64,000 nt of DNA from Treponema sp. (GCA_016286365.1 JAEESN010000003.1:1-64000), one strand, 5' to 3'; positions 1,936 through 12,930 are shown, numbered from the stretch's first letter. Numbers and translations: made by a program. Notes: generated by a model from the sequence alone, not told the origin.

Positions 1936-3648
1936 CTATCCTTGTAACATTTTTCTGAAAATACCATTTTTTCTTTTTAATTCTAAGAAACTACCCTGTT
2001 CAATTATTTTACCTTTATCTAATACACAGATATTATCGCAGTTCTCTATGGTTGAAAGTCTATGAGCTATGGATATTATTGTTTTATGTTCTTTTTTTAA
2101 TTTTTTTATTATTTCTACTACCACTTTTTCTGATTCTACATCAAGATTGCTTGTTGCTTCATCAAATATTATGATTGATGGATTTTTTAATAACGCTCGA
2201 CAGATTACTATTATCTGTTTTTCTCCTCCCGATAAAGAAAATCCCCTTTCTCCCACGACAGTATCAAACCCTGATTCCAAACTCATTATTTTTTCATAAA
2301 TACCAACTGTTTTACAAATCTCAATAATCTTATCTTTTTTTATTGATTCATCAAACATTGTAATATTCTGAATTATTGTTCCTGAAAACAAGACTACCTC
2401 TTGTGGAATATACGCAATTTTTAAACGAAGATCTTCTGTATCTATCTTAGATAAATCAATCCCATTCCATGATATTTGCCCTCTCAGAGGTTTATAAAGT
2501 TTTAAAAGAAGTTTAGCTATCGTTGTTTTTCCAGAACCAGTCTTCCCTGCAAAGCTAATCCATTCACCAGGTTTTATTATTAGATTAAAATCATTAAATA
2601 ATTCATTTTCTTTTGAATAACTAAAACTCATATTCTTAAATGTTATTTCTGGAATATCATCTGCCAAACGAAGTCCTGTAAATTCATCCTCTGTATCTTC
2701 ATCCAAAACTTCAAAGAGACGTTTTATAGCTGCGAAAGCTTCCTGAACGCCAGCCTGTAAATCAAGTAAAGCTCCAACAGAATTTGTAAAAAATCCGCTT
2801 AGAGAAATAAAACCGGCAACCTGCCCTAAAGTCATTTTTTCATTCATTACAAATAAAGAACTAAAAACTAATATAAATACGGATGATAATTTTTCTATTA
2901 TGGAGCAATAAGAATTCTGCATAATCCATTTTTCTCCAATATTCCATCCGGTTTGAATATTTTCCTTTTGTTTTCTGTCATATTGATTTTTAAATGTTCT
3001 GAATGAAGGATAAGTTTTTATTGACTCTATTCCTGAAAAACTTTCATTGATAAAGGCTTGTAAATCTGCATACTTTTCCATAGAAACCGGATATTCTTTT
3101 GCAAAAAAACGGCCAAAAAACAATACCACCACAGACAGAATAATTACTGATATTAAAAGAATAAGAAAAAGAATTTTATTAATACATATCAAAGCGGTTC
3201 CAACGACAAGAAACATAATTAGATTTGCAATTATTGATATAAACCCATCTGACAAAGCATTCCGAACCATACGTGTATCATTTAAACGGGAAAGCAGTTC
3301 TCCGGTTTTATGTTTTTCAAAAAAAAGATATTTAATCCTCAATACTTTTTCATAAAACCTCTTCATCAAATCTATGTCCATCTTATAGGAAATCTCTTGA
3401 ATTAAAAGATTTTTTATTCCTCTTAATGCCATTTGGAAAATAGCAACTAGAAGCATTATTATAGCTATTGTAAGAAGAGTTATCTTTGCATTTGAATACA
3501 AGACATTATCAATCAAATAATTCAAGAGTAAAGAATCGGTAACTCCAACCAGCGAAATCATCATCGTAGAGATTAATGTAATTATCATCTCTTTTTTATA
3601 TGAACTAAGAAGCAATATTATCTTTTTCAGAGTAGGCTTATTTATCAT
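1936..3648 (-). CDS. ABC exporter (TMD-NBD) of the peptide operon, no C39 peptidase
   Basis: Half-size ABC exporter of about 570 residues. The N-terminal half has some six hydrophobic segments; the C-terminal half is a nucleotide-binding domain with Walker A GKTGSGKTT (about residue 370), signature LSGGEKQ (about 471), Walker B IIIFDEATSNLD and the H-loop SIAHRLS. It resembles peptide exporters of bacteriocin systems but begins directly with the membrane domain, so the N-terminal C39 leader peptidase of peptidase-containing transporters is missing. The ATG at 3648 overlaps the end of the HlyD gene by 11 nt; an upstream in-frame TTG at 3666 is possible. Last gene of the operon. Likely exports the modified peptide together with the adaptor protein. 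Confidence 0.88.
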   Translation of the reverse strand: MINKPTLKKIILLLSSYKKEMIITLISTMMISLVGVTDSLLLNYLIDNVLYSNAKITLLTIAIIMLLVAIFQMALRGIKNLLIQEISYKMDIDLMKRFYEKVLRIKYLFFEKHKTGELLSRLNDTRMVRNALSDGFISIIANLIMFLVVGTALICINKILFLILLISVIILSVVVLFFGRFFAKEYPVSMEKYADLQAFINESFSGIESIKTYPSFRTFKNQYDRKQKENIQTGWNIGEKWIMQNSYCSIIEKLSSVFILVFSSLFVMNEKMTLGQVAGFISLSGFFTNSVGALLDLQAGVQEAFAAIKRLFEVLDEDTEDEFTGLRLADDIPEITFKNMSFSYSKENELFNDFNLIIKPGEWISFAGKTGSGKTTIAKLLLKLYKPLRGQISWNGIDLSKIDTEDLRLKIAYIPQEVVLFSGTIIQNITMFDESIKKDKIIEICKTVGIYEKIMSLESGFDTVVGERGFSLSGGEKQIIVICRALLKNPSIIIFDEATSNLDVESEKVVVEIIKKLKKEHKTIISIAHRLSTIENCDNICVLDKGKIIEQGSFLELKRKNGIFRKMLQG

Positions 3649-4741
3649 AACTAACCAATTTTCCAATCATTTTTTGAAATATTGTATTTGAATCTGTTAT
3701 TATTTTTGCGTTTACCTTTGTTCCGACTTTTAATTTTATAGTTTCTTTTTTATATGTCAGACTTCCCTTATCAAGCTTTACTTCTACAGAAAAATATGGA
3801 TTGTCAGATTCAATAGCATCAGCCGGTATTAATATTATTTTGCCTTCGAGCTTTCCATATTTTGTATAAGGAAGATCTGATATCTGAAATATTACATTCT
3901 GCCCAATCTTAATTTTTGAAATACTTGAATTTGATATATTTATTACAGCCAGCAAATCCAATGAATCGGGAACTATAGTTGCTATCTGAATTCCAGCATT
4001 AAGACTTTCACCAGCAGAAATTTTTTGTTTTTCATTTATAAAACCAGTTTCTCTAGCCCTTACAGATGCATCTGCAACTATTTTTTGTAATCGCATAATT
4101 TCAAGTTCTGTATTTTTTAATTTTTGTGAAAAATCTGAATAGTTTTCTAAAACCTGAGTTTTCTGTTCTTCCAGCCAATATTTAAAATTGAGCTCAACCT
4201 GAAAATAATCATTTTCTGCATTTTCCAATTCCTGCTTAGAAATAACAGACGGGTACAGAGCTTTCTGGCGTTCATAATAATTCTTCTTTATTTTTACTTC
4301 GCTCTGATATTTCTTATATTGATTTACAAAAGAAGAATACTCTGCATTTTCTTTTACGTATATTTCGTCGTATGGACATTTTTTTTCTGTCGTTTCTAAC
4401 AACAATTCTTGAAGTCTTTTTAAAGAATCTACATGCTGTTCATATAAAGCTTTTAGATTTAGACAGTTTTGCAATCCTTCTTTTTCATAACTACAATCCT
4501 GCTCAAACAGCAAATCACCTTTATTTACAAACTGTGTATTTTTATAATATACGTTTGTTACTTTTCCCGAATATAATGAAATTACATCTGATGATTCCTG
4601 GACAGGACGAATAGTTCCCTCGCATAAAACAACTTCGTCCAGATGACAGAAAAAGAGGGAAAGAAGGAAAAAAAGAAAAGTTATTATTAGTAATCTTATA
4701 TAAGACTTTTTTAATCTGCCATTTATAAATGAATACTGCAT
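3638..4741 (-). CDS. HlyD-type membrane fusion / secretion adaptor protein
   Basis: A 367-residue periplasmic adaptor. A single membrane anchor near residues 15-35 is followed by a split biotinyl-lipoyl-like region (EGTIRPVQ..DVISLYSGKVTNVYYKNTQFVNKGDLLFEQD), a long coiled-coil hairpin (about residues 75-215) and the returning lipoyl and beta-barrel parts (TGFINEKQKISAGESLNAGIQIATIVP). This is the architecture of HlyD-family adaptors that link an ABC exporter to an outer-membrane channel or span the periplasm. It starts 2 nt after the upstream lipoprotein gene and overlaps the ABC gene, so the three are translationally linked. No TolC-like channel gene is present nearby. The coiled coil is shorter than in HlyD itself. 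Confidence 0.88.
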   Translation of the reverse strand: MQYSFINGRLKKSYIRLLIITFLFFLLSLFFCHLDEVVLCEGTIRPVQESSDVISLYSGKVTNVYYKNTQFVNKGDLLFEQDCSYEKEGLQNCLNLKALYEQHVDSLKRLQELLLETTEKKCPYDEIYVKENAEYSSFVNQYKKYQSEVKIKKNYYERQKALYPSVISKQELENAENDYFQVELNFKYWLEEQKTQVLENYSDFSQKLKNTELEIMRLQKIVADASVRARETGFINEKQKISAGESLNAGIQIATIVPDSLDLLAVINISNSSISKIKIGQNVIFQISDLPYTKYGKLEGKIILIPADAIESDNPYFSVEVKLDKGSLTYKKETIKLKVGTKVNAKIITDSNTIFQKMIGKLVSYDK

Positions 4742-4743
4742 TT

Positions 4744-6246
4744 TTACCAGCCAAAATATACATATTCCTTATAATCAAATTCAAACGGGAATTTAACCTG
4801 TATTTCTTTTTGCCTGTAATAATCAGCCTTTTCTATGTTACCAGTTTTTTCTTCACATAATGCAGCTTTCTCATAAGCTAATTTTAAAACAGGACTTACA
4901 TATAATAATTCATTCTGAAATAATTCTTCCCATTCTTTTAATGCTTTTTTATAATCTGATTTTTTTTCTGAATACATTGCCTGGTCTGTTTTAAAATATG
5001 CAATCCAATACTGTGGCCAAATATCATTGTTTGGAGCTATCTCTTTGGCGTGTTGCATTGAATTAATTATATAACTTATTACTTCAATATTAGGTTTTGT
5101 TAAATACTCATCAATTAAACCATAACAATACATATACTTTGAATATTCTTCTAATAAAGTTATATCCCAATCTTTTTTCCAAAAATTTGAATAACCATTA
5201 TCTGTAACTAATTCGAAAAGATTATTTATACATTTTTCAAGGTCATTATAATTGTCAAAATAATTATAAATAAATAAATCATCAAAATAATATTTTAAAT
5301 AATATATTGAGAGTAAGAATTGAAATGATTCTGAACCCGGCACAACACTTGTTAGTCGTGAAAAATCTCCTATCTTTTTTTCACCATCAATTATTTTTTC
5401 TAAGAGACAATTAGCATGATTTCTAATTGGAATATAACTATATGAAACTCCATATTTCTCCTGCTTAGTAATGCATAAATTATTATATGCTGCCAAAAAT
5501 TCTTCTCCGTATAGTTCACTTTTAATATTTTCTGGTACTATAAAACAATTCTCATCTGCTGCTAATAATAAATCACATTCTCTGGATGGAAAAAAACAAT
5601 CAATTTTATAATTTGTAAAATTATCATCATAATAATCAGATAAATAAACACCCAATGCTTTCCAATTATAATCATAAAAAAGCTGGTTTATCTTATAACC
5701 ATGATTCGCTCCAAAAAAAACAATAGCTTTGTCATTTTTTTGTGAACTAGATAAACTATTAATGATATTTTGTTGACTATAATAATCCCGATTATTTATC
5801 AAATTAGATTGACCTTTAATATCATATGTATAATCTTTTTCTTCAAATCCTTCTTCTGGGAAACATATTCGTATTGGATCGTTCAAATATTTCTTATTAA
5901 TTTCATTTATTTTCTCGAAAAAGAGTTTCTCTTCATATTTCCAGCCTGCATTAATCCACATTGGCATAATTAAAAATTTATAGTTTTTAGTTGCATCCAT
6001 AGGAGGTGTTTGAATTGCTTCTAAAAAAAGATATCTTAAGCCAGCATTATAAAATTCTTCCAGATGTTCTGTCATAAAAATAATTGGATAAATGTCTGCG
6101 TGGTTTTCACCAATAAAAATGATTTTTTTATTATATAAATCTTCAACAATCTGTTCGCTTGCAGGTTTCGCATTACGTAAATTATATGTTTTTTTACAAG
6201 AAATAAATAAAACAAAGATAACAAAAAAAAGAATAATCTTTTTCAT
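4744..6246 (-). CDS. Lipoprotein with two GxxH motifs (Tiki/TraB/ChaN-like), candidate peptidase
   Basis: A 500-residue predicted lipoprotein. The signal MKKIILFFVIFVLFISC ends in a lipobox with Cys17. The start at 6246 shares one base with the stop of the preceding radical SAM gene (TAATG), which supports it over an upstream ATG at 6345. Residues about 40-185 resemble the ChaN/EreA/TraB/Tiki fold: GENH (46-49) after a hydrophobic strand, an acidic FLEA strand, and GANH (179-182) after IVFFGANHG. Paired GxxH motifs are the metal-binding signature of Tiki/TraB-type metallopeptidases, while ChaN binds haem. The C-terminal half is helical and TPR-like. It could be the operon's leader peptidase, since the exporter lacks one, or it could handle metal, haem or immunity. 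Function is inferred. Confidence 0.6.
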   Translation of the reverse strand: MKKIILFFVIFVLFISCKKTYNLRNAKPASEQIVEDLYNKKIIFIGENHADIYPIIFMTEHLEEFYNAGLRYLFLEAIQTPPMDATKNYKFLIMPMWINAGWKYEEKLFFEKINEINKKYLNDPIRICFPEEGFEEKDYTYDIKGQSNLINNRDYYSQQNIINSLSSSQKNDKAIVFFGANHGYKINQLFYDYNWKALGVYLSDYYDDNFTNYKIDCFFPSRECDLLLAADENCFIVPENIKSELYGEEFLAAYNNLCITKQEKYGVSYSYIPIRNHANCLLEKIIDGEKKIGDFSRLTSVVPGSESFQFLLSIYYLKYYFDDLFIYNYFDNYNDLEKCINNLFELVTDNGYSNFWKKDWDITLLEEYSKYMYCYGLIDEYLTKPNIEVISYIINSMQHAKEIAPNNDIWPQYWIAYFKTDQAMYSEKKSDYKKALKEWEELFQNELLYVSPVLKLAYEKAALCEEKTGNIEKADYYRQKEIQVKFPFEFDYKEYVYFGW

Positions 6247-7355
6247 TAATTTATATACCTCGTAATTATAAAATCTTTTCCAAGAATACTTATCTTGTTT
6301 AAAATGTAATCTGCAATTTGAATTAGCTTTTGACTTATTATACATTCTTGAGTTGATATTTCAAATAACTTCCCACATGAATGGTAATTTCTCGAAGGAC
6401 AATAATTTGAACACTTATTTCTAAAAACACACTCAGAACATTTTGAAAACATGTTTTGAGTGGAAACTTGTTTCTGAAACAATTCAATTCTTTTCAAATC
6501 TAACCCTTCTATTAGATTCCCAATTATTACATCATTACAATTAAGACCCGAAAAATCTCCACACGAGAGTATATTTCCATCTGGCAAAATTGTACATGTC
6601 GTTTTCCCTGCAGAGCATAATTGAGTTTCTTCATTATTGTTCAATAAATTTAATTTTATTTGTTTATCAAAAAAATCAAAACCGATTTCTTTTGTCTCTA
6701 TTACTCTTTTAGAATAAATATCTCCTAGAATATATAATTCTTTTTCTAATAATGAAATTTCCTGTTCCTTCCAATTTTGATTAAATGCGATATTCATCGA
6801 TATTTTTACATTAAAATTCTTTGTAAGGAACAAATAATTTTCAGACAAATACTTCACATTATTAGGGGTAATAACTGAATTAATTATAATCTTCTTATGA
6901 TTACTAAGGTTTTTATATATATAATTAATTCTACTAAAAACTTTGTCAAAGCTTCCTTTCCCATTCTTAAATATTCTATTTAAATTATGAGACTCTTTTA
7001 TACCATCAAGACTCAAAAAAAAATCAAAATTATGCCTTTTAAAAAACTCAAAACTTTGTTTGGTTATTAAAACAGTATTCGTTGATATTTCCCATATAAA
7101 ATCTCTCTTTTCATTTATTAATACTAGTTCTATTCTTTCCACTAACTTTTTTATAATTGGAAAATTCAATAAACATTCACCCCCAGATATATTTATTGAA
7201 ATAATCTCATTTGGATGTCTTTCAATATCCCCTTTAATAAAACTTAGATAATCTGAAATCATTCCGTCTGTAATTTTTTTGTATTCTTTGCTTTTTTCAA
7301 AACAATATTTACATTCTAAATTACAATTCATATTTGTAATGATTTGATAATGCAT
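6246..7355 (-). CDS. Radical SAM/SPASM peptide maturase 2
   Basis: A 369-residue radical SAM enzyme. The cluster motif is CNLECKYC at residues 11-18 (Cx3Cx2C), followed by the SGGECLLNF motif (SAM binding) and the LDGIKESHNLNR segment. The C-terminal SPASM region has CSAGKTTC, ILSCGDFSG and CSECVFRNKCSNYC (Cx2Cx5Cx3C, near residue 305), giving ligands for auxiliary clusters. It is close in layout to the preceding radical SAM protein (same Cys positions 11/15/18), so the two are probably paralogues. An SD of GAGGGAG precedes the start. In this operon it should install thioether, C-C or epimer modifications on the Cys-rich peptide. No RiPP-recognition domain is obvious in it. Confidence 0.88.
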   Translation of the reverse strand: MHYQIITNMNCNLECKYCFEKSKEYKKITDGMISDYLSFIKGDIERHPNEIISINISGGECLLNFPIIKKLVERIELVLINEKRDFIWEISTNTVLITKQSFEFFKRHNFDFFLSLDGIKESHNLNRIFKNGKGSFDKVFSRINYIYKNLSNHKKIIINSVITPNNVKYLSENYLFLTKNFNVKISMNIAFNQNWKEQEISLLEKELYILGDIYSKRVIETKEIGFDFFDKQIKLNLLNNNEETQLCSAGKTTCTILPDGNILSCGDFSGLNCNDVIIGNLIEGLDLKRIELFQKQVSTQNMFSKCSECVFRNKCSNYCPSRNYHSCGKLFEISTQECIISQKLIQIADYILNKISILGKDFIITRYIN

Positions 7356-7370
7356 TTATTATGTCTCCCT

Positions 7371-8471
7371 CTATTTCTTAATATATGTACCAAATTGTTT
7401 TAAAAATGTTTCATTATTCTCTTTTAATAAAAACTCAATTATTTGATCTGATATTCCTATGATTGTTTTTTGCATTTCACACGTTATTACTGGTGGAGAA
7501 ATTAAATCATTCGTTACTCTGTTATTAATTGCATAACAGTTATGGTGACACCTAAAGTTCAAACTACATTGTGAACAATCTTCATTTTCTTTATCTATAA
7601 GAAATAATAATTCTTTTATTTTATGACTATCAATTCCTGTATGTATATTTCCAATCAGATAATTACTTTCGTTCTTACATTTAAAAAATGTTCCACAAAA
7701 AAGTATATCGCCATTTGTTTTTATTCCAATTTGATCTGTTATACCACCGCAATTATATTTTCCAAAACCTTTAAAAAAACTTTCGATACAATCAGAAAAT
7801 AAAGAAAAAACAAACATATCATTTTCTATATACTTCTGAATATATAATTGTTTGATTTTATCAAGTTCATTTTTAAAAAATAATATACTATTTTCATCCC
7901 ATTCATAATCCGCACAATAACAAGCAACAAGTCTTTTACACCCATTATTAACTAAAAAAAATACATTTTCATACAAAGCTGCGACTGTTGATGGAGTTAT
8001 AAGCATACTATACGAAGTCTTTATTAATGGATACTTATTATGAATTAAATTAATTTTTTCCATGACTGCATCAAAAGTTCCCTCGTTCATAAAATCAACT
8101 CGATTCATATCATGACTTTCTTTTTTACCATCTATACTAATTTGTACTGAAAACTTCTTCGTATTCAAAAAATCTAGTATTTCATCATTCGCCAATATGA
8201 GATTTGTAGATAATGAGAAATTATTAATCCCATCCTTTTCAAAATAACTAACTAACTCTTTCATTAAAGGGAACTCAAGAAGAGCTTCTCCTCCATTGAA
8301 ATTCACAGTAATTTCTTTATTCAAAACAAAACTTTGTGATACGTACGTATGAAAAAAGTTAATCAATTCTGAAACATCTTTTACATAAAATGATCTATTT
8401 TTTTTTACTCCTTCAAAACAATAACGACAATTAATATTACAATTTTCTGTAAGTAACAATTCAAAAATCAT
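7371..8471 (-). CDS. Radical SAM/SPASM peptide maturase 1
   Basis: A 366-residue radical SAM enzyme beginning MIFELLLTENCNINCRYC (Cx3Cx2C, residues 11-18). It has the SAM-binding FNGGEALLEFP segment and a SPASM tail with ILFCGTFFKC and CSQCSLNFRCHHNC (Cx2Cx5Cx3C, about residue 297). SPASM enzymes of this size modify ribosomal peptides or sulfatases; no sulfatase is nearby and a Cys-rich 70-residue peptide lies directly upstream, so a peptide substrate is inferred. An SD of AAAGAGG precedes the start, immediately next to one arm of the inverted repeat enclosing the precursor gene. The gap to the next maturase is 15 nt. Having two maturases for one peptide suggests two modification steps or a heterodimer. 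Confidence 0.88.
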   Translation of the reverse strand: MIFELLLTENCNINCRYCFEGVKKNRSFYVKDVSELINFFHTYVSQSFVLNKEITVNFNGGEALLEFPLMKELVSYFEKDGINNFSLSTNLILANDEILDFLNTKKFSVQISIDGKKESHDMNRVDFMNEGTFDAVMEKINLIHNKYPLIKTSYSMLITPSTVAALYENVFFLVNNGCKRLVACYCADYEWDENSILFFKNELDKIKQLYIQKYIENDMFVFSLFSDCIESFFKGFGKYNCGGITDQIGIKTNGDILFCGTFFKCKNESNYLIGNIHTGIDSHKIKELLFLIDKENEDCSQCSLNFRCHHNCYAINNRVTNDLISPPVITCEMQKTIIGISDQIIEFLLKENNETFLKQFGTYIKK

Positions 8472-8483
8472 AGCAAACCTCTT

Positions 8484-8502
8484 TAAAAGAACTACATATA
8501 TA
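8484..8502 (+). repeat. Inverted repeat arm, downstream of the precursor gene
   Basis: TAAAAGAACTACATATATA on the plus strand is the perfect 19-nt reverse complement of 8757-8775. The two arms enclose exactly the precursor peptide gene with its SD. This arm lies between the peptide stop codon and the SD of the first radical SAM gene. Confidence 0.85.
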
Positions 8503-8518
8503 TTTTTTTAATTATCTG

Positions 8519-8731
8519 TTATTGACAGAATGTTGAGCTACTGCCACAGCCTTTACAGTTAGTTCCTGTGTTTCCATTAGAACCACAATTACATGGTCCT
8601 GATCCCGTATTTGTTAACCCGTTACATGATGGTCCATGAGGAGTTCCGCCTCCTCCCTTTTCATAAATCAAAATTCTTAAATCTGAAATAAAATTCGATT
8701 CAGAATATTCCTTAACTGGTTTTAAACTCAT
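8519..8731 (-). CDS. RiPP precursor peptide, Cys/Gly-rich, 70 aa
   Basis: A 70-residue peptide with a charged N-terminal leader-like part (residues 1-25, ending LRILIYEK), a run of four glycines (26-29) and a 41-residue tail made almost only of Gly, Ser, Thr, Asn and six Cys (36, 47, 49, 59, 62, 69). This two-part layout next to two SPASM radical SAM enzymes and an exporter is that of a sactipeptide- or ranthipeptide-like precursor; the six Cys within 34 residues recall the six-Cys ranthipeptides, but I do not recognise the leader. AAGGAGGT, 6 nt before the ATG, is the strongest SD in the operon and fits a highly expressed precursor. Cleavage after the Gly run is plausible but not shown. Confidence 0.82.
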   Translation of the reverse strand: MSLKPVKEYSESNFISDLRILIYEKGGGGTPHGPSCNGLTNTGSGPCNCGSNGNTGTNCKGCGSSSTFCQ

Positions 8732-8756
8732 ATCAATACCTCCTTAAAATACTTTT

Positions 8757-8775
8757 TATATATGTAGTTCTTTTA
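8757..8775 (+). repeat. Inverted repeat arm, upstream of the precursor gene
   Basis: TATATATGTAGTTCTTTTA is the perfect reverse complement of 8484-8502. It lies in the 60-nt gap between the GNAT-like gene and the precursor gene, upstream of the precursor SD. The arms are 254 nt apart. Confidence 0.85.
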
Positions 8776-8791
8776 TCTTTTTTTACCGATA

Positions 8792-9304
8792 TCAAAGTTT
8801 TTTGAAAGCAAGATAATCTTCTTTAAAAATCTCAAACAGCACATTGTTATAATATTTCCCGTCTGTAAGTTTCACTGAGTTTCTTGAAATACCTACTTCA
8901 TTTCCATTTAATTTTTTAACAAGCCGGCGATACATATTCAAAACAGGATTTTGTTCGATACATGAAAATTCAATCTTACGGAGATTTTTATAAATAAATA
9001 CTTCATCAAAATAAGCTTCAATATCTTTTGAAAAAATAATATTTGGTTTTCCGGTAAAATTAATAACCTCAAACTTTTCTAAAAGTTCATAACCTCTGTT
9101 AATATATCCTGTAAAAAATCCAAGTAGATTACCTTTACTGTCCTTGCTTACAAATTGTAAAAATTCAGAATCATTATTTGATATGTAGGGATAAAAATCT
9201 TTTTGTGGGTAATAAATATACAGATACAAATCATTGTTTTCTGTATAAATCTTTTTATATGCTTCATAAAGCTTATCTTGATTAAAATAAGCAGGTTCTA
9301 ACAT
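8792..9304 (-). CDS. GNAT-like protein, first gene of the peptide operon
   Basis: A 170-residue protein with a mixed alpha/beta pattern and a C-terminal part (NPVLNMYRRLVKKLNGNEVGIS, then a strand ending in VLFEIFKEDYLAFKK) that looks like the last helix and strands of GNAT acetyltransferases; the acetyl-CoA loop is not clearly canonical. First gene after the divergent promoter, with SD GGAGATAG before the ATG. Possible roles are N-acetylation of the peptide or self-protection; both are inference. It is 60 nt upstream of the precursor gene. It could also be a degenerate GNAT fold with a binding role. Confidence 0.55.
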   Translation of the reverse strand: MLEPAYFNQDKLYEAYKKIYTENNDLYLYIYYPQKDFYPYISNNDSEFLQFVSKDSKGNLLGFFTGYINRGYELLEKFEVINFTGKPNIIFSKDIEAYFDEVFIYKNLRKIEFSCIEQNPVLNMYRRLVKKLNGNEVGISRNSVKLTDGKYYNNVLFEIFKEDYLAFKKL

Positions 9305-9353
9305 TTATCTATCTCCGAATACTTTTCTAATAAGATATTTTTTAATTCAAAAA

Positions 9354-9370
9354 ATATACTAACAGTATAT
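9354..9370. promoter_or_regulatory. Palindrome at the start site of the peptide operon
   Basis: ATATACT-AAC-AGTATAT is a perfect 7-bp inverted repeat with a 3-nt centre. It lies just downstream of the -10 of the minus-strand operon promoter, where a repressor site would block initiation. A likely ligand is the divergently encoded XRE protein (inference). Confidence 0.45.
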
Positions 9371-9376
9371 AATTAT

Positions 9377-9405
9377 ATTAAAATATGCTTTTAGTAAATT
9401 GTCAA
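9377..9405 (-). promoter_or_regulatory. Promoter of the peptide operon
   Basis: On the minus strand a perfect TTGACA (9400-9405), a 17-nt spacer and TTTAAT (9377-9382). It would drive the seven-gene operon down to 1936, since no terminator is visible between genes and spacings are short. The -35 overlaps a plus-strand TTGTCA (9399-9404), so the two divergent promoters share this element. Confidence 0.65.
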
Positions 9406-9427
9406 ATTTATTTTTAACAAAAATAAT
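9399..9427 (+). promoter_or_regulatory. Probable promoter of the XRE regulator
   Basis: TTGTCA (9399-9404), a 17-nt spacer and AATAAT (9422-9427). The -10 is only moderate. It overlaps the start of the perfect palindrome at 9423-9445, which would allow autoregulation. Confidence 0.4.
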
Positions 9428-9445
9428 ATCCTTAAAGGATATTAT
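9423..9445. promoter_or_regulatory. Perfect palindrome containing the regulator's Shine-Dalgarno
   Basis: Two perfect 11-bp arms (left ATAATATCCTT, right AAGGATATTAT) around a single A. The right arm holds AAGGA, the SD for the ATG at 9448. It can act as a DNA operator overlapping the -10, or as an RNA hairpin hiding the SD; both would give feedback on the regulator. Confidence 0.55.
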
Positions 9446-9447
9446 CA

Positions 9448-9753
9448 ATGACAATACAGGAATGTCTGGCAAAAAATATAAAATATTACAGAAACAAAAA
9501 TAATCTTACACAAAGCCAGCTTGCAGAAGCGTGTAGAACCTCAACAAATTATATTGCGACAATTGAAACAGGAAAAAAATATCCTTCGCCTACAACTCTC
9601 GAAAAAATTGCAAAGGTTTTTAATATTGAAGCTCTGGATTTGTTTCAAATTCATAAAGAGTTACACGCTACTAATGACAGGCCATCCATAGAAAAAATCC
9701 GTAACACCTTGCAAACAGAAATTTCAAAGCTAATTGACTCTATTGTTAAATAA
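9448..9753 (+). CDS. XRE-family helix-turn-helix regulator
   Basis: A 101-residue protein. Residues 1-65 form a Cro/C1-type HTH (NLTQSQLAEACRTSTNYIATIETGKKYPSPTTLEKIAKVF), followed by a short Lys-rich helical tail. It is divergent from the radical SAM peptide operon, separated by 143 bp with overlapping promoters and two palindromes, so it is the obvious candidate controller of the operon and itself. No sensor domain is visible, so the signal is unknown; the tail may mediate dimerisation. Confidence 0.85.
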   Translation: MTIQECLAKNIKYYRNKNNLTQSQLAEACRTSTNYIATIETGKKYPSPTTLEKIAKVFNIEALDLFQIHKELHATNDRPSIEKIRNTLQTEISKLIDSIVK

Positions 9754-9825
9754 GTTTTAAATCCTATTCCTTTTTATTCTGCATTCTCTCTTCAATCATT
9801 CCAGAAAATAAGCTAAAATCACCTT

Positions 9826-10308
9826 ATGAAAAAAACAAATGCTATGCGTATTCTGGACGGGATGAATATTCCTTACGAGACAAAAGAATACGAGGATGAC
9901 GGTGAACACGAGCTTGCAAAAGGGGCGGCACAAAGGATTGCAGAAAAGCTTGGGATTGATCCTATGGCGGTTTTTAAGACGATTGTAATGCGGACGGAAA
10001 CCAAAGAAATCTGTGTTTTTTGCGAATGTGCACTTTCGGAAATCAATCTTAAAAAGGCAAGAACGGCTGCGGGCTGTAAGGAAATTAATCCTGTAAAACC
10101 GGAAGAGCTTTTAGCATTGACCGGATATATCCGCGGGGGTTGTACTCCTCTTGGCATGAAGAAAAAATTCCGCACGTTTATTGATGAACAGATTCTTCTG
10201 CACGAAAAAGTTTATATAAGCGGCGGGCAGCGTGGTGTTCAGATTGTGATTAAGCCTGATGATTTAATTAAGGCGTGTGAAGCAACCGTAGTTGATTTAG
10301 AATTATAG
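9826..10308 (+). CDS. ybaK: YbaK/EbsC-type aminoacyl-tRNA deacylase
   Basis: A 160-residue protein matching the YbaK (Cys-tRNA(Pro)/Cys-tRNA(Cys) deacylase) family over its whole length: ELAKGAAQRIAEKLG, VFKTIVMRTETKEICVFCECALSEINLKKA, the family glycine loop GYIRGGCTPLGMKKKF and GGQRGVQIVIKPDDL. It hydrolyses mischarged Cys-tRNA(Pro) in the cytoplasm. No SD precedes the ATG; instead TAAAAT (9814-9819) ends 6 nt before it, suggesting a leaderless transcript. The -35 is weak. Monocistronic by position. Confidence 0.9.
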   Translation: MKKTNAMRILDGMNIPYETKEYEDDGEHELAKGAAQRIAEKLGIDPMAVFKTIVMRTETKEICVFCECALSEINLKKARTAAGCKEINPVKPEELLALTGYIRGGCTPLGMKKKFRTFIDEQILLHEKVYISGGQRGVQIVIKPDDLIKACEATVVDLEL

Positions 10309-10413
10309 AAGATTTTAGCGCCGGATGATTCTGGGCTTTATGATTATATTTTGGCATATGGCCGGATAACTCTGGCTTTTGTGATAGTGTAATATATTTT
10401 CCCTGGGGAAGCT

Positions 10414-12930
10414 ATGAATAAAATTATTGATTTATTAAAAAAACAGATTCTCTTTTTTGACGGAGGAACGGGGACAGTCCTTCAGAGCATGGGTTTAAAA
10501 CCCGGCGAGCTTCCCGAAACCTGGAACCTTAAATATCCCGAGCGGATTACGGAGCTCCACTACAGGTATTTCCAGGCGGGTGCAAACATCATAAAGACGA
10601 ATACCTTTGGTGCATTCATAACAAAATTTCCCCTGGAGCTTGAACGAATAATAAAAGCGGCTATAGAAAATGCAGAAAACGCGCGGACAAAAAGCGGAAA
10701 GAAAAATCTTTTTATTGCGTTTGATATTTCTTCTACCGGTAAACTTTTAAAACCGATGGGAGATCTTGATTTTGAAGACTGTATTACCCTTTATAAAAAA
10801 ACTTTTAACATCGCACTTAAATGCAATATTGACTGCATCCTTATAGAAACTATGAACGACGGTTACGAAACAAAGGCTGCTGTTATTGCTGCAAAAGAAG
10901 TGATGGAAGATTTACATGTTGACTTCCCGATTTTTGTAACAAATGTATACGACAAGGAATGCAGAACTTTAAGCGGTTCTACTCCTGAATCTATGGTTTG
11001 TATGCTCGAAGGTCTTGGAGTAAGTGCAATCGGTGTAAACTGCAGCCTTGGTCCAAAAGAAATGATTCCTGCTGTTGAACGACTTTGTAATGCAGCAAGT
11101 ATTCCTGTAATTGTAAATCCTAATGCGGGGCTTCCTAAGGTGATTGAAGGAAAAACTGTTTTTGACGTAAACGAAAAAGATTTTGTTGAATCGATGAAAA
11201 CTGTTTACCAAAAGGGAGCGGGAATTTTAGGCGGATGCTGCGGTACAACTCCTGATTACATCAAACTGCTTTCGGAAACTATTACGAAAATTTCCGGCGG
11301 TAAAATAATAGAAAAAAATAATACTCCAAAATGCATGATTTCTTCGAACACAAGGGTTGTTTATTTTGGTGATGATTATAAACCTGTTTTAATCGGAGAG
11401 CGAATTAATCCAACCGGCAAAAAAAAGTTTAAGGAAGCTTTAAGAAATAATGATATTCCTTACATCATAAAACAGGGAATGGAACAGGAAGCGGCAGGAG
11501 CAGATGTTCTTGATGTGAACGTAGGACTTCCGGAAATTGATGAAAAAGAGATGATGGTAAAGGTGATGACAGAACTTCAGTCGGTTACTGAATTACCTTT
11601 ACAGATTGATACGACTTCTCGTGATGTTATGGAAGCTGCCCTACGCCGATACAACGGAAAACCTCTTGTAAACTCTGTAAACGGTAAAAAAGAAATCATG
11701 GAGCAGATTTTCCCTCTTGTAAAAAAATACGGTGGAGTTGTAATCGGACTCACGATTGATGAAGAAGGAATTCCTGAAAAATCTCCAAAGCGAATTGAAA
11801 TTGCAAAAAACATTTATGAACAGGCTAAAAAATACGGAATAGAAAAACACAATATCATCATTGACCCGCTTGCTATGGCTGTAAGTTCTGATTCAAAGGC
11901 GGGAATTGCAACACTCGAAACCGTAAAGGCCGTTCACGAGATGGGCGGTAACACAAGCCTTGGTATTTCGAATGTTTCTTTTGGTCTTCCAAACCGTGAA
12001 TTTGTTACTTCATCATTTTTTACAATGGCTTTAACAAACGGATTGAGTGCGGCAATCATGAATCCGCTCCAGTTCGAAATGATGAAGGCTTATAAAACTT
12101 TCTGCCTCCTTTGTGGAAAAGATGACCAGTGCATGGATTATCTTTCGTGGTGTACTTCTGTTCAGGGGATTATTGATGCACAGAATGCAGGCGCGCAGGG
12201 GGGCGGGGGCGCTACGGGGGTGTCCCCCGTTGGAAGGGGTAGTGAGCAACGAAGTGCGAACGAGGGGAAGGCTTTCCCCTCCTCTGACCTCTCTACTGCC
12301 ACGGGCACGCTTGAATATGCGGTAATTCACGGGCTTAAGGATGAGGCGGCAAAAATCACGGGCGAACTTTTGCAGAATACGGATTCGCTTACGATTATCA
12401 ACGAGCATCTGATTCCCGGCCTTGATTATGTTGGCAAACGCTTTGAAAAAAAGACGATGTATCTTCCTCAGCTTTTGATGGCGGCAGAAGCGGCTAAATC
12501 GGCGTTCGGGGAAATTCGCAATTATATGGAAAAAACCGGTAAAAAAGGTAAGTCCAAGGGAAAAATTATCATTGCGACGGTAAAGGGCGACATCCACGAC
12601 ATCGGTAAAAATATTGTTAAGGTTCTTCTCGAAAATTATGATTTTGATGTTATCGATCTTGGAAAAGATGTGCCGCCGGAAACTGTTGTAGAAGCCTGCA
12701 AAAAAGATAAGGTTTTACTGGTAGGGCTTTCTGCTTTGATGACTACGACGGTAGCTGCCATGGAAGATACGATTAGGCTTTTGCGGAAGGAATGCCCCTG
12801 GGCTAAAGTCTGCGTTGGCGGTGCAGTTATGACTCAGGAATACGCGGATCAGATTGGCGCTGACTTTTACGGTAAGGATGCGATGGATACGGTAAGGTAT
12901 GCGAACGAATTGTTTGGCGCGGGGAAATGA
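10414..12930 (+). CDS. metH: Cobalamin-dependent methionine synthase, short form
   Basis: An 838-residue MetH. Order: homocysteine S-methyltransferase domain (FFDGGTGTVLQ at the start; Zn ligands Cys210 and Cys275/Cys276), methyltetrahydrofolate-binding domain (VLIGERINPTGKKKF, DVNVGLP), cap domain, and cobalamin-binding domain with the GDIHDIGKNIV motif (Asp726-x-His728-x-x-Gly731, His as axial ligand). The C-terminal AdoMet reactivation domain is absent, as in many bacteria, so reactivation must come from another protein. Residues about 593-629, in the linker before the cap domain, are a Gly/Ser-rich insertion encoded by a GC-rich palindromic element shared with the epimerase gene. SD GGGGAA precedes the ATG. 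It transfers methyl from methyl-THF to homocysteine. Confidence 0.95.
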   Translation: MNKIIDLLKKQILFFDGGTGTVLQSMGLKPGELPETWNLKYPERITELHYRYFQAGANIIKTNTFGAFITKFPLELERIIKAAIENAENARTKSGKKNLFIAFDISSTGKLLKPMGDLDFEDCITLYKKTFNIALKCNIDCILIETMNDGYETKAAVIAAKEVMEDLHVDFPIFVTNVYDKECRTLSGSTPESMVCMLEGLGVSAIGVNCSLGPKEMIPAVERLCNAASIPVIVNPNAGLPKVIEGKTVFDVNEKDFVESMKTVYQKGAGILGGCCGTTPDYIKLLSETITKISGGKIIEKNNTPKCMISSNTRVVYFGDDYKPVLIGERINPTGKKKFKEALRNNDIPYIIKQGMEQEAAGADVLDVNVGLPEIDEKEMMVKVMTELQSVTELPLQIDTTSRDVMEAALRRYNGKPLVNSVNGKKEIMEQIFPLVKKYGGVVIGLTIDEEGIPEKSPKRIEIAKNIYEQAKKYGIEKHNIIIDPLAMAVSSDSKAGIATLETVKAVHEMGGNTSLGISNVSFGLPNREFVTSSFFTMALTNGLSAAIMNPLQFEMMKAYKTFCLLCGKDDQCMDYLSWCTSVQGIIDAQNAGAQGGGGATGVSPVGRGSEQRSANEGKAFPSSDLSTATGTLEYAVIHGLKDEAAKITGELLQNTDSLTIINEHLIPGLDYVGKRFEKKTMYLPQLLMAAEAAKSAFGEIRNYMEKTGKKGKSKGKIIIATVKGDIHDIGKNIVKVLLENYDFDVIDLGKDVPPETVVEACKKDKVLLVGLSALMTTTVAAMEDTIRLLRKECPWAKVCVGGAVMTQEYADQIGADFYGKDAMDTVRYANELFGAGK
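12214..12285 (+). repeat. Palindromic mini-element inside metH
   Basis: GC-rich insert of two hairpin units: ACGGGGG-TGT-CCCCCGT (12214-12230) and GGGGAAGGCTTTCCCC (12264-12279). The parts 12228-12244 and 12260-12285 match the insert in the epimerase gene at 15/17 and 23/26 bases, with different spacer lengths (15 versus 22 nt). Here the element lies in the sense direction and encodes GRGSEQRSANEGKAFPSS in frame. Confidence 0.75.

Follow-up and report, generated by a model that had tools for sequence, protein, structure and literature searches.

What does a peptide-modifying gene cassette of a Treponema species, a gut spirochaete, make, and what would the lipoprotein encoded at its center do? 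The cassette lies in a 64,000-nucleotide stretch of DNA (GCA_016286365.1, JAEESN010000003.1:1-64000; hereafter the window), in which a minus-strand operon at positions 1936-9304 faces a gene for an XRE-family regulator. The original prediction, made from the sequence of the window, described a divergent operon for a ribosomally synthesized and post-translationally modified peptide (RiPP), and all eight of its open reading frames (ORFs) are present, with the regulator gene on the opposite strand. In the order of transcription, the operon encodes a GNAT-like protein, a 70-residue precursor, two radical S-adenosylmethionine (SAM) enzymes with SPASM domains (termed rSAM1 and rSAM2), a lipoprotein, an HlyD-type adaptor and an ATP-binding cassette (ABC) exporter that lacks a C39 peptidase domain. 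We read it, with a probability of roughly 0.6, as an acquired RiPP cassette that would make, cross-link and export a Cys-containing peptide, and that includes a hydrolytic lipoprotein of the TIKI/ChaN type.

The precursor gene (8519..8731, minus strand) follows a strong Shine-Dalgarno sequence, AAGGAGG, and its product has a leader of about residues 1-25 and, as predicted, six Cys residues and a tail of 41 residues after the GGGG stretch. This core is composed of Gly, Ser, Asn, Thr and Cys, and has no Asp or Glu after residue 24. The leader has a pattern in common with those of three other loci (VKEYSESNFISDL, IKNYELPSSIKEL, VSDYQIPEIINWL and VKNYKPSKYLKEI), and the four cores are unrelated apart from their Cys residues, which number 6, 2, 3 and 4. 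In a leave-one-out motif search against 1854 other small ORFs, three of the precursors rank first and one third, with 0, 0, 2 and 0 ORFs scoring as well as the held-out precursor; these ranks are somewhat generous, as the pattern had been picked by eye beforehand. Because the leader motif recurs in four loci, with independent support from a position directly 5' of rSAM1 in 4/4 loci, we regard the 70-residue ORF as a real RiPP precursor. A conserved leader joined to a variable core, next to SPASM maturases that are closest to thioether-forming enzymes, identifies the cassette at the sequence level as a radical SAM RiPP system, in line with the original prediction. Two of the four leaders also possess a YxxP spacing, which we take to be that of lasso-peptide leaders and treat as a lead only.

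The related loci came from an rSAM1 search of the genus, which gave one clear relative (E 3e-75), followed by lipoprotein, rSAM1 and GNAT-like profiles over about 390 spirochaete genomes. Three further clusters were found: a complete one in another Treponema, a broken one and, in a distant family of spirochaetes, a larger one, so that the gene order as well as the leader, proposed earlier as things to search for, recur in other genomes. The complete cluster (locus L019), at a different chromosomal site, encodes a 58-residue precursor, a single radical SAM enzyme of the rSAM1 type, a GxxH lipoprotein, HlyD and ABC proteins, and no GNAT-like protein; two maturases and a GNAT-like protein are therefore not essential features of a complete cluster. 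The broken cluster (genome G034) follows the order of the window at one contig end, with a GNAT-like gene, a 65-residue precursor and the very beginning of rSAM1 leading into an apparent transposase gene, and a second contig ends inside the lipoprotein gene, next to HlyD and an interrupted ABC gene. At L063 (6565-6785), rSAM1 stops after its first residues and runs into the apparent start of an IS3-type transposase, as either an insertion or an assembly chimera.

The larger cluster (locus L045 of genome G182), found in another family of the phylum, has an 82-residue precursor followed by rSAM1, rSAM2, a GxxH protein and a GNAT-like protein. Its GxxH protein of 816 residues is secreted and combines carboxypeptidase-regulatory, GxxH and PDZ parts. 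A QhpE-like subtilase and a further radical SAM gene, nearest to PhpK-type methyltransferases, lie upstream of the precursor, and the GNAT-like gene is followed by two FtsX-type permeases, LolA-like and outer-membrane-like proteins, a LolD-like ATPase, a second GNAT-like protein, an acyl carrier protein (ACP), a ketosynthase and an ABC exporter (here FtsX, Lol, ACP and ketosynthase are names assigned by eye from the sequences). Outside the Spirochaetota, two lipoprotein peptide patterns served as the sole probe and gave matches in Treponema alone.

Several other radical SAM matches were set aside as not belonging to this cassette, namely those beside arrays of small secreted-protein genes in three genomes (G211, G233 and G238) and one in another gene context (G493). 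Those in other Treponema genomes (E 1e-11 to 1e-29) look like generic SPASM enzymes. A system of a different kind, CXXX-repeat-like, was seen in genome G503 (L080, 8281-9792), another Treponema, where a gene for a 110-residue peptide precedes a radical SAM gene. In L067 and L068 (spirochaete family f51), tandem genes for related secreted proteins of about 180 residues end in a SPASM-like radical SAM gene, possibly a multi-substrate system.

Both maturases of the window, rSAM1 (7371..8471, minus strand, 366 residues; Radical_SAM 7.9e-10) and rSAM2 (6246..7355, minus strand, 369 residues; Radical_SAM 3e-11), score above the Pfam cut-off and have a CX3CX2C motif at residue 11 and a CX2CX5CX3C motif with a final Cys 19 residues later, the identical spacing noted in the original prediction. 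Each has its own orthologue in L045 (31% and 32% identity, higher than the cross-pairs), which indicates that the enzyme pair is old. Scanning against NCBIfam revealed PapB (NF047865) as the best model for all five cassette enzymes scanned, at 151-182 bits (151 for rSAM1 and 164.5 for rSAM2) versus a cut-off of 340, followed by the QhpD, SCIFF, Nif11 and CXXX maturases, and the scores are far below every NCBIfam cut-off. Consistent with the earlier observation, family scans gave no match resembling a RiPP recognition element, and the radical SAM core already begins at residue 11. As several of the nearest families make thioethers, a thioether is our first guess for the product. PapB joins Cys to Asp or Glu in CX3D motifs (PMC9413430), and QhpD also uses Asp/Glu acceptors (PMC7876137). 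PapB-type links are therefore impossible in the window core, which has neither residue, and either the acceptor is another residue or the chemistry differs.

It is very improbable that these enzymes modify another protein, such as a sulfatase or, as in QHNDH, an enzyme subunit, with the small peptide as a dispensable neighbor. The cassette enzymes do reach 57-103 bits against the model for anaerobic sulfatase maturases and 100-122 bits against the QhpD model TIGR03906 (100-116 bits in the window; cut-off 453), but these scores are below those of PapB and far below the cut-offs. Moreover, no gene for a sulfatase or a QHNDH subunit was seen in the clusters, and the precursors with the shared leader stand invariably ahead of rSAM1.

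The lipoprotein gene (4744..6246, minus strand) is the most unusual member of the operon. The two-GxxH lipoprotein of the original prediction is present; its start, placed mechanically at 6345, was moved to 6246 (MKKIILFF...ISC), in a TAATG overlap with rSAM2, giving a protein of 500 residues with C-terminal TPR repeats. It has no Pfam or NCBIfam match (Pfam up to E 10), and the best Pfam score of any homologue is to Erythro_esteras (E 0.022, one member, below the gathering score). Profile searches returned TPR proteins and, weakly, PDB 5w6l/6a8j (E about 0.04) over residues 31-188, the GxxH region. Both entries are listed as RTX (cytotoxin) proteins, and RRSP, an effector of MARTX (RTX) toxins, is an endopeptidase of the TIKI superfamily for which two His and two Glu residues are essential (PMC6254334). 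The window lipoprotein has the corresponding set, E47-x-H49, E76 and H182 in GxxH, with a step of 27 residues from H49 to E76 versus 28 in RRSP. Alignment of 12 lipoprotein sequences revealed invariant residues H49, E76, W97, E131, N151, R153-D154, G179 and H182-G183, and the copies encoded by the cassettes of the window, L019 and L045 retain all four catalytic positions. An hhalign comparison with an alignment of the spirochaete ChaN family (PF04187) gave a score of 46.8 and a probability of 86%, with GENH, RD and GxxH in register, whereas 100 column shuffles reached at most 23.7 and 2.8%. From the ChaN profile match and the RRSP-like 2His/2Glu set, the protein looks like a remote homologue of the TIKI/EreA/ChaN type and a candidate peptidase of the surface or periplasm, where a lipid anchor would hold it outside the inner membrane. 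The remark that no peptidase was evident in the operon accordingly needs revision, with the two-GxxH lipoprotein as the candidate.

If so, the lipoprotein might resemble PrgY, a TIKI-like membrane peptidase that is thought to degrade the cell's own pheromone after export (PMC7117660). Intact lipoprotein genes occur without a precursor or radical SAM gene in several Treponema genomes, solitary in L022, L023, L027, L040 and L042, and next to HlyD and a deleted ABC gene in L020. Since the lipoprotein is kept intact where the precursor and the maturases are missing, as an immunity gene would be, protection of the producer or control of the peptide has an edge over leader removal, short of certainty. 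Leader removal would mean that the modified precursor is exported whole by the C39-less ABC/HlyD pair and that the lipoprotein cuts off the leader outside the inner membrane. This we consider unlikely, even though the operon has no C39 domain or other peptidase, no QhpE-like subtilase was found in the genome of the window, in the Treponema clusters the lipoprotein gene sits between the maturase and exporter genes, and TIKI proteins include endopeptidases (PMC6254334). In the QHNDH system, the leader is cleaved off in the cytoplasm by QhpE, prior to export (PMC7876137); L045 has its own subtilase nearest to QhpE, yet retains a GxxH protein, and the solitary copies persist in the absence of any precursor to cleave.

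A few observations weigh against a hydrolytic lipoprotein that acts on the peptide. In the solitary copies of L022, L023 and L027, Asn replaces the first catalytic Glu (GNNH/GNEH), and these are possibly non-hydrolytic derivatives. Solitary genes also adjoin housekeeping genes, so that the protein might serve the envelope in some general way that has nothing to do with the peptide. Pfam files ChaN as a haem/cofactor-binding protein, and the AlphaFold model of the lipoprotein (7 sequences) is poor, with a pLDDT of 54, and permits no fold assignment. With this model, Foldseek/VIA matched solved structures over the TPR part only; EreA and ChaN structures are not in the match lists, which proves nothing, and 90 spirochaete genomes searched for PF05139 yielded no members for comparison. 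Accordingly, a ChaN-like protein that binds a cofactor, a metal or the peptide, as a receptor, chaperone or sequestering immunity factor, has to be considered. Such a non-hydrolytic role fits the TPR repeats, the best detectable homology, which is to PF04187 (Cofac_haem_bdg) proteins, and the loss of the first Glu from some homologues; we think it rather improbable, as the cassette-encoded copies keep the four catalytic positions and H49, E76 and H182 do not vary among the 12 sequences. Hydrolysis of the exported peptide remains our preferred role for the cassette-encoded lipoprotein.

The GNAT-like protein (8792..9304, minus strand, 170 residues) is encoded by the first gene of the operon and accompanies the precursor in 3/4 clusters. 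This candidate N-acyltransferase has no Pfam or NCBIfam match of its own, and the classical acetyl-CoA-binding motif is not visible. Its L045 homologue matches Acetyltransf_1 over the full domain (E 0.0066; 17.2 bits versus a gathering score of 20.7), and the profile of the family aligns in register with GNATs of the window's own genome (score 22.5 versus a shuffle maximum of 15.7). An AlphaFold model of the protein alone is too poor for fold assignment (pLDDT 35). These matches lend weak support to an acyltransferase. Selidamides bear a fatty acyl group that a GNAT enzyme attaches to a Lys or Orn side chain (PMC9505594), and HlyC-type enzymes use acyl-ACP (PMC8510554). As an ACP and a ketosynthase adjoin the two GNAT-like copies of the distant G182 cluster, acylation in either manner is a reasonable idea.

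Three other spirochaete loci, one of them in the genome of the window, place a more distant branch of GNAT-like proteins beside aspartic-protease-like genes, and double-glycine peptides occur at two of the three. The locus in the genome of the window (L066, G000:C19:115000-128185, 4962-10592) holds a second exported-peptide system, composed of a Ser-rich double-glycine-leader peptide, an aspartic-protease-like protein (DTGSA) with a PDZ-like end, a distant GNAT-like protein, a C39 ABC exporter scoring above the TIGR01193 cut-off, and HlyD. In two other spirochaete genera (L065, 6267-7784; L064, 7340-9285), a GNAT-like protein is paired with an aspartic-protease-like lipoprotein, and L065 additionally encodes a 76-residue double-glycine-leader peptide, a C39 ABC exporter and HlyD.

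The export genes complete the operon. The adaptor gene (3638..4741, minus strand; HlyD_3 4.8e-16) is followed by the exporter gene (1936..3666, minus strand; ABC_membrane 2.3e-35, ABC_tran 6.3e-30), which starts at TTG 3666 or else at a downstream ATG. Profiles of peptidase-containing exporters align with its product only from about position 134 onward, which bears out the predicted lack of a C39 domain. On the opposite strand, the regulator gene (9448..9753, plus strand; helix-turn-helix family HTH_3, 1.5e-15) has a perfect 23-bp palindrome, ATAATATCCTT-A-AAGGATATTAT, directly upstream of its start codon (9423..9445), probably the operator of the regulator. The cassette is flanked by an N-acylglucosamine-epimerase-like gene and a YbaK/metH region (names read from the sequences). 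Its G+C content of 27.3% is far below the 42% of both flanks, and the cassette was therefore probably acquired horizontally.

Altogether, we propose that the XRE protein controls the cassette from the divergent promoter region, and that the precursor would be recognized via its conserved leader. By analogy with their relatives, rSAM1 and an accessory rSAM2 would install radical cross-links, most likely thioethers from Cys to Thr, Asn, Ser or Gly carbons, and the GNAT-like protein may acylate the peptide. HlyD and the C39-less ABC exporter would move the peptide out through the inner membrane and the envelope, and outside the inner membrane the TIKI/ChaN-type lipoprotein would hydrolyze it, most likely for protection or control of the producer and less likely for leader removal. 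A broader proposal is tentative and we would not count on it: a RiPP class with an extracytoplasmic TIKI/ChaN-type lipoprotein peptidase as a core part, for processing or hydrolytic self-immunity, acting on radically cross-linked peptides, some of which would also receive a fatty acyl group from a GNAT-like enzyme that a dedicated ACP and ketosynthase supply. If true, a TIKI-superfamily peptidase as a RiPP partner would connect peptide antibiotics or signals with a protease fold that acts in the control of Wnt and pheromones. The solitary intact lipoproteins suggest an immunity gene amenable to direct study in rumen Treponema communities. RiPPs of spirochaetes are rarely characterized, and this cassette offers four precursors with a defined leader, as well as two to three maturases. 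Among anaerobes surveyed in 2014, spirochaetes accounted for four RiPP clusters, for azole peptides of Brachyspira (PMC4289311).

Compared to known systems, the cassette is a radical SAM RiPP system and as such belongs to a kind already known, and we have found no description of its gene set. The precursor, the GNAT-like protein and the lipoprotein reach no catalogue family, and the claim that no characterized RiPP class fits agrees with our searches, which matched no catalogued class. The PapA/PapB (freyrasin) system resembles it in a small Cys-rich precursor with an N-terminal leader and in the best-scoring maturase model, but that model is reached at less than its cut-off and the window core offers no Cys-Xn-Asp/Glu acceptor pairs. 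To our knowledge, a second radical SAM enzyme, a GNAT or a TIKI protein does not belong to the PapA/PapB system. SCIFF/CteB shares the radical SAM/SPASM architecture, and the best PDB sequence match of the maturases is 5wgg (3.9e-39), which we take to be CteB; however, the SCIFF model TIGR03974 gives 103-109 bits in the window and 80-115 bits over the cassette enzymes versus a cut-off of 425, the enzymes lack an N-terminal recognition domain, and the peptide, which has no NCBIfam match, is not SCIFF.

The QhpC/QhpD/QhpE/QhpF system likewise has a peptide with an N-terminal leader, a thioether-forming SPASM radical SAM enzyme and an ABC exporter, and its subtilase has a counterpart in L045 (PMC7876137). 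It differs in that no dehydrogenase subunits or QhpG-type monooxygenase were seen in the cassette, whose product would be a free peptide, and in that scores stay under the QhpD and QhpE cut-offs. PrgY/TraB, Tiki, EreA, ChaN and RRSP share with the lipoprotein the ExH ... E ... GxxH set and extracytoplasmic anchoring, and PrgY removes a self peptide; the cassette protein, in contrast, is a TPR-containing lipoprotein encoded in a RiPP operon and reaches no Pfam family. Finally, although the GNAT-like protein of the window has no significant family match and is dispensed with in L019, the cassette resembles the selidamide GNAT and HlyC-type systems in placing a GNAT-like gene of about 170 residues in one operon with a secreted peptide and HlyD/ABC, to which L045 adds an ACP and a ketosynthase-like protein.

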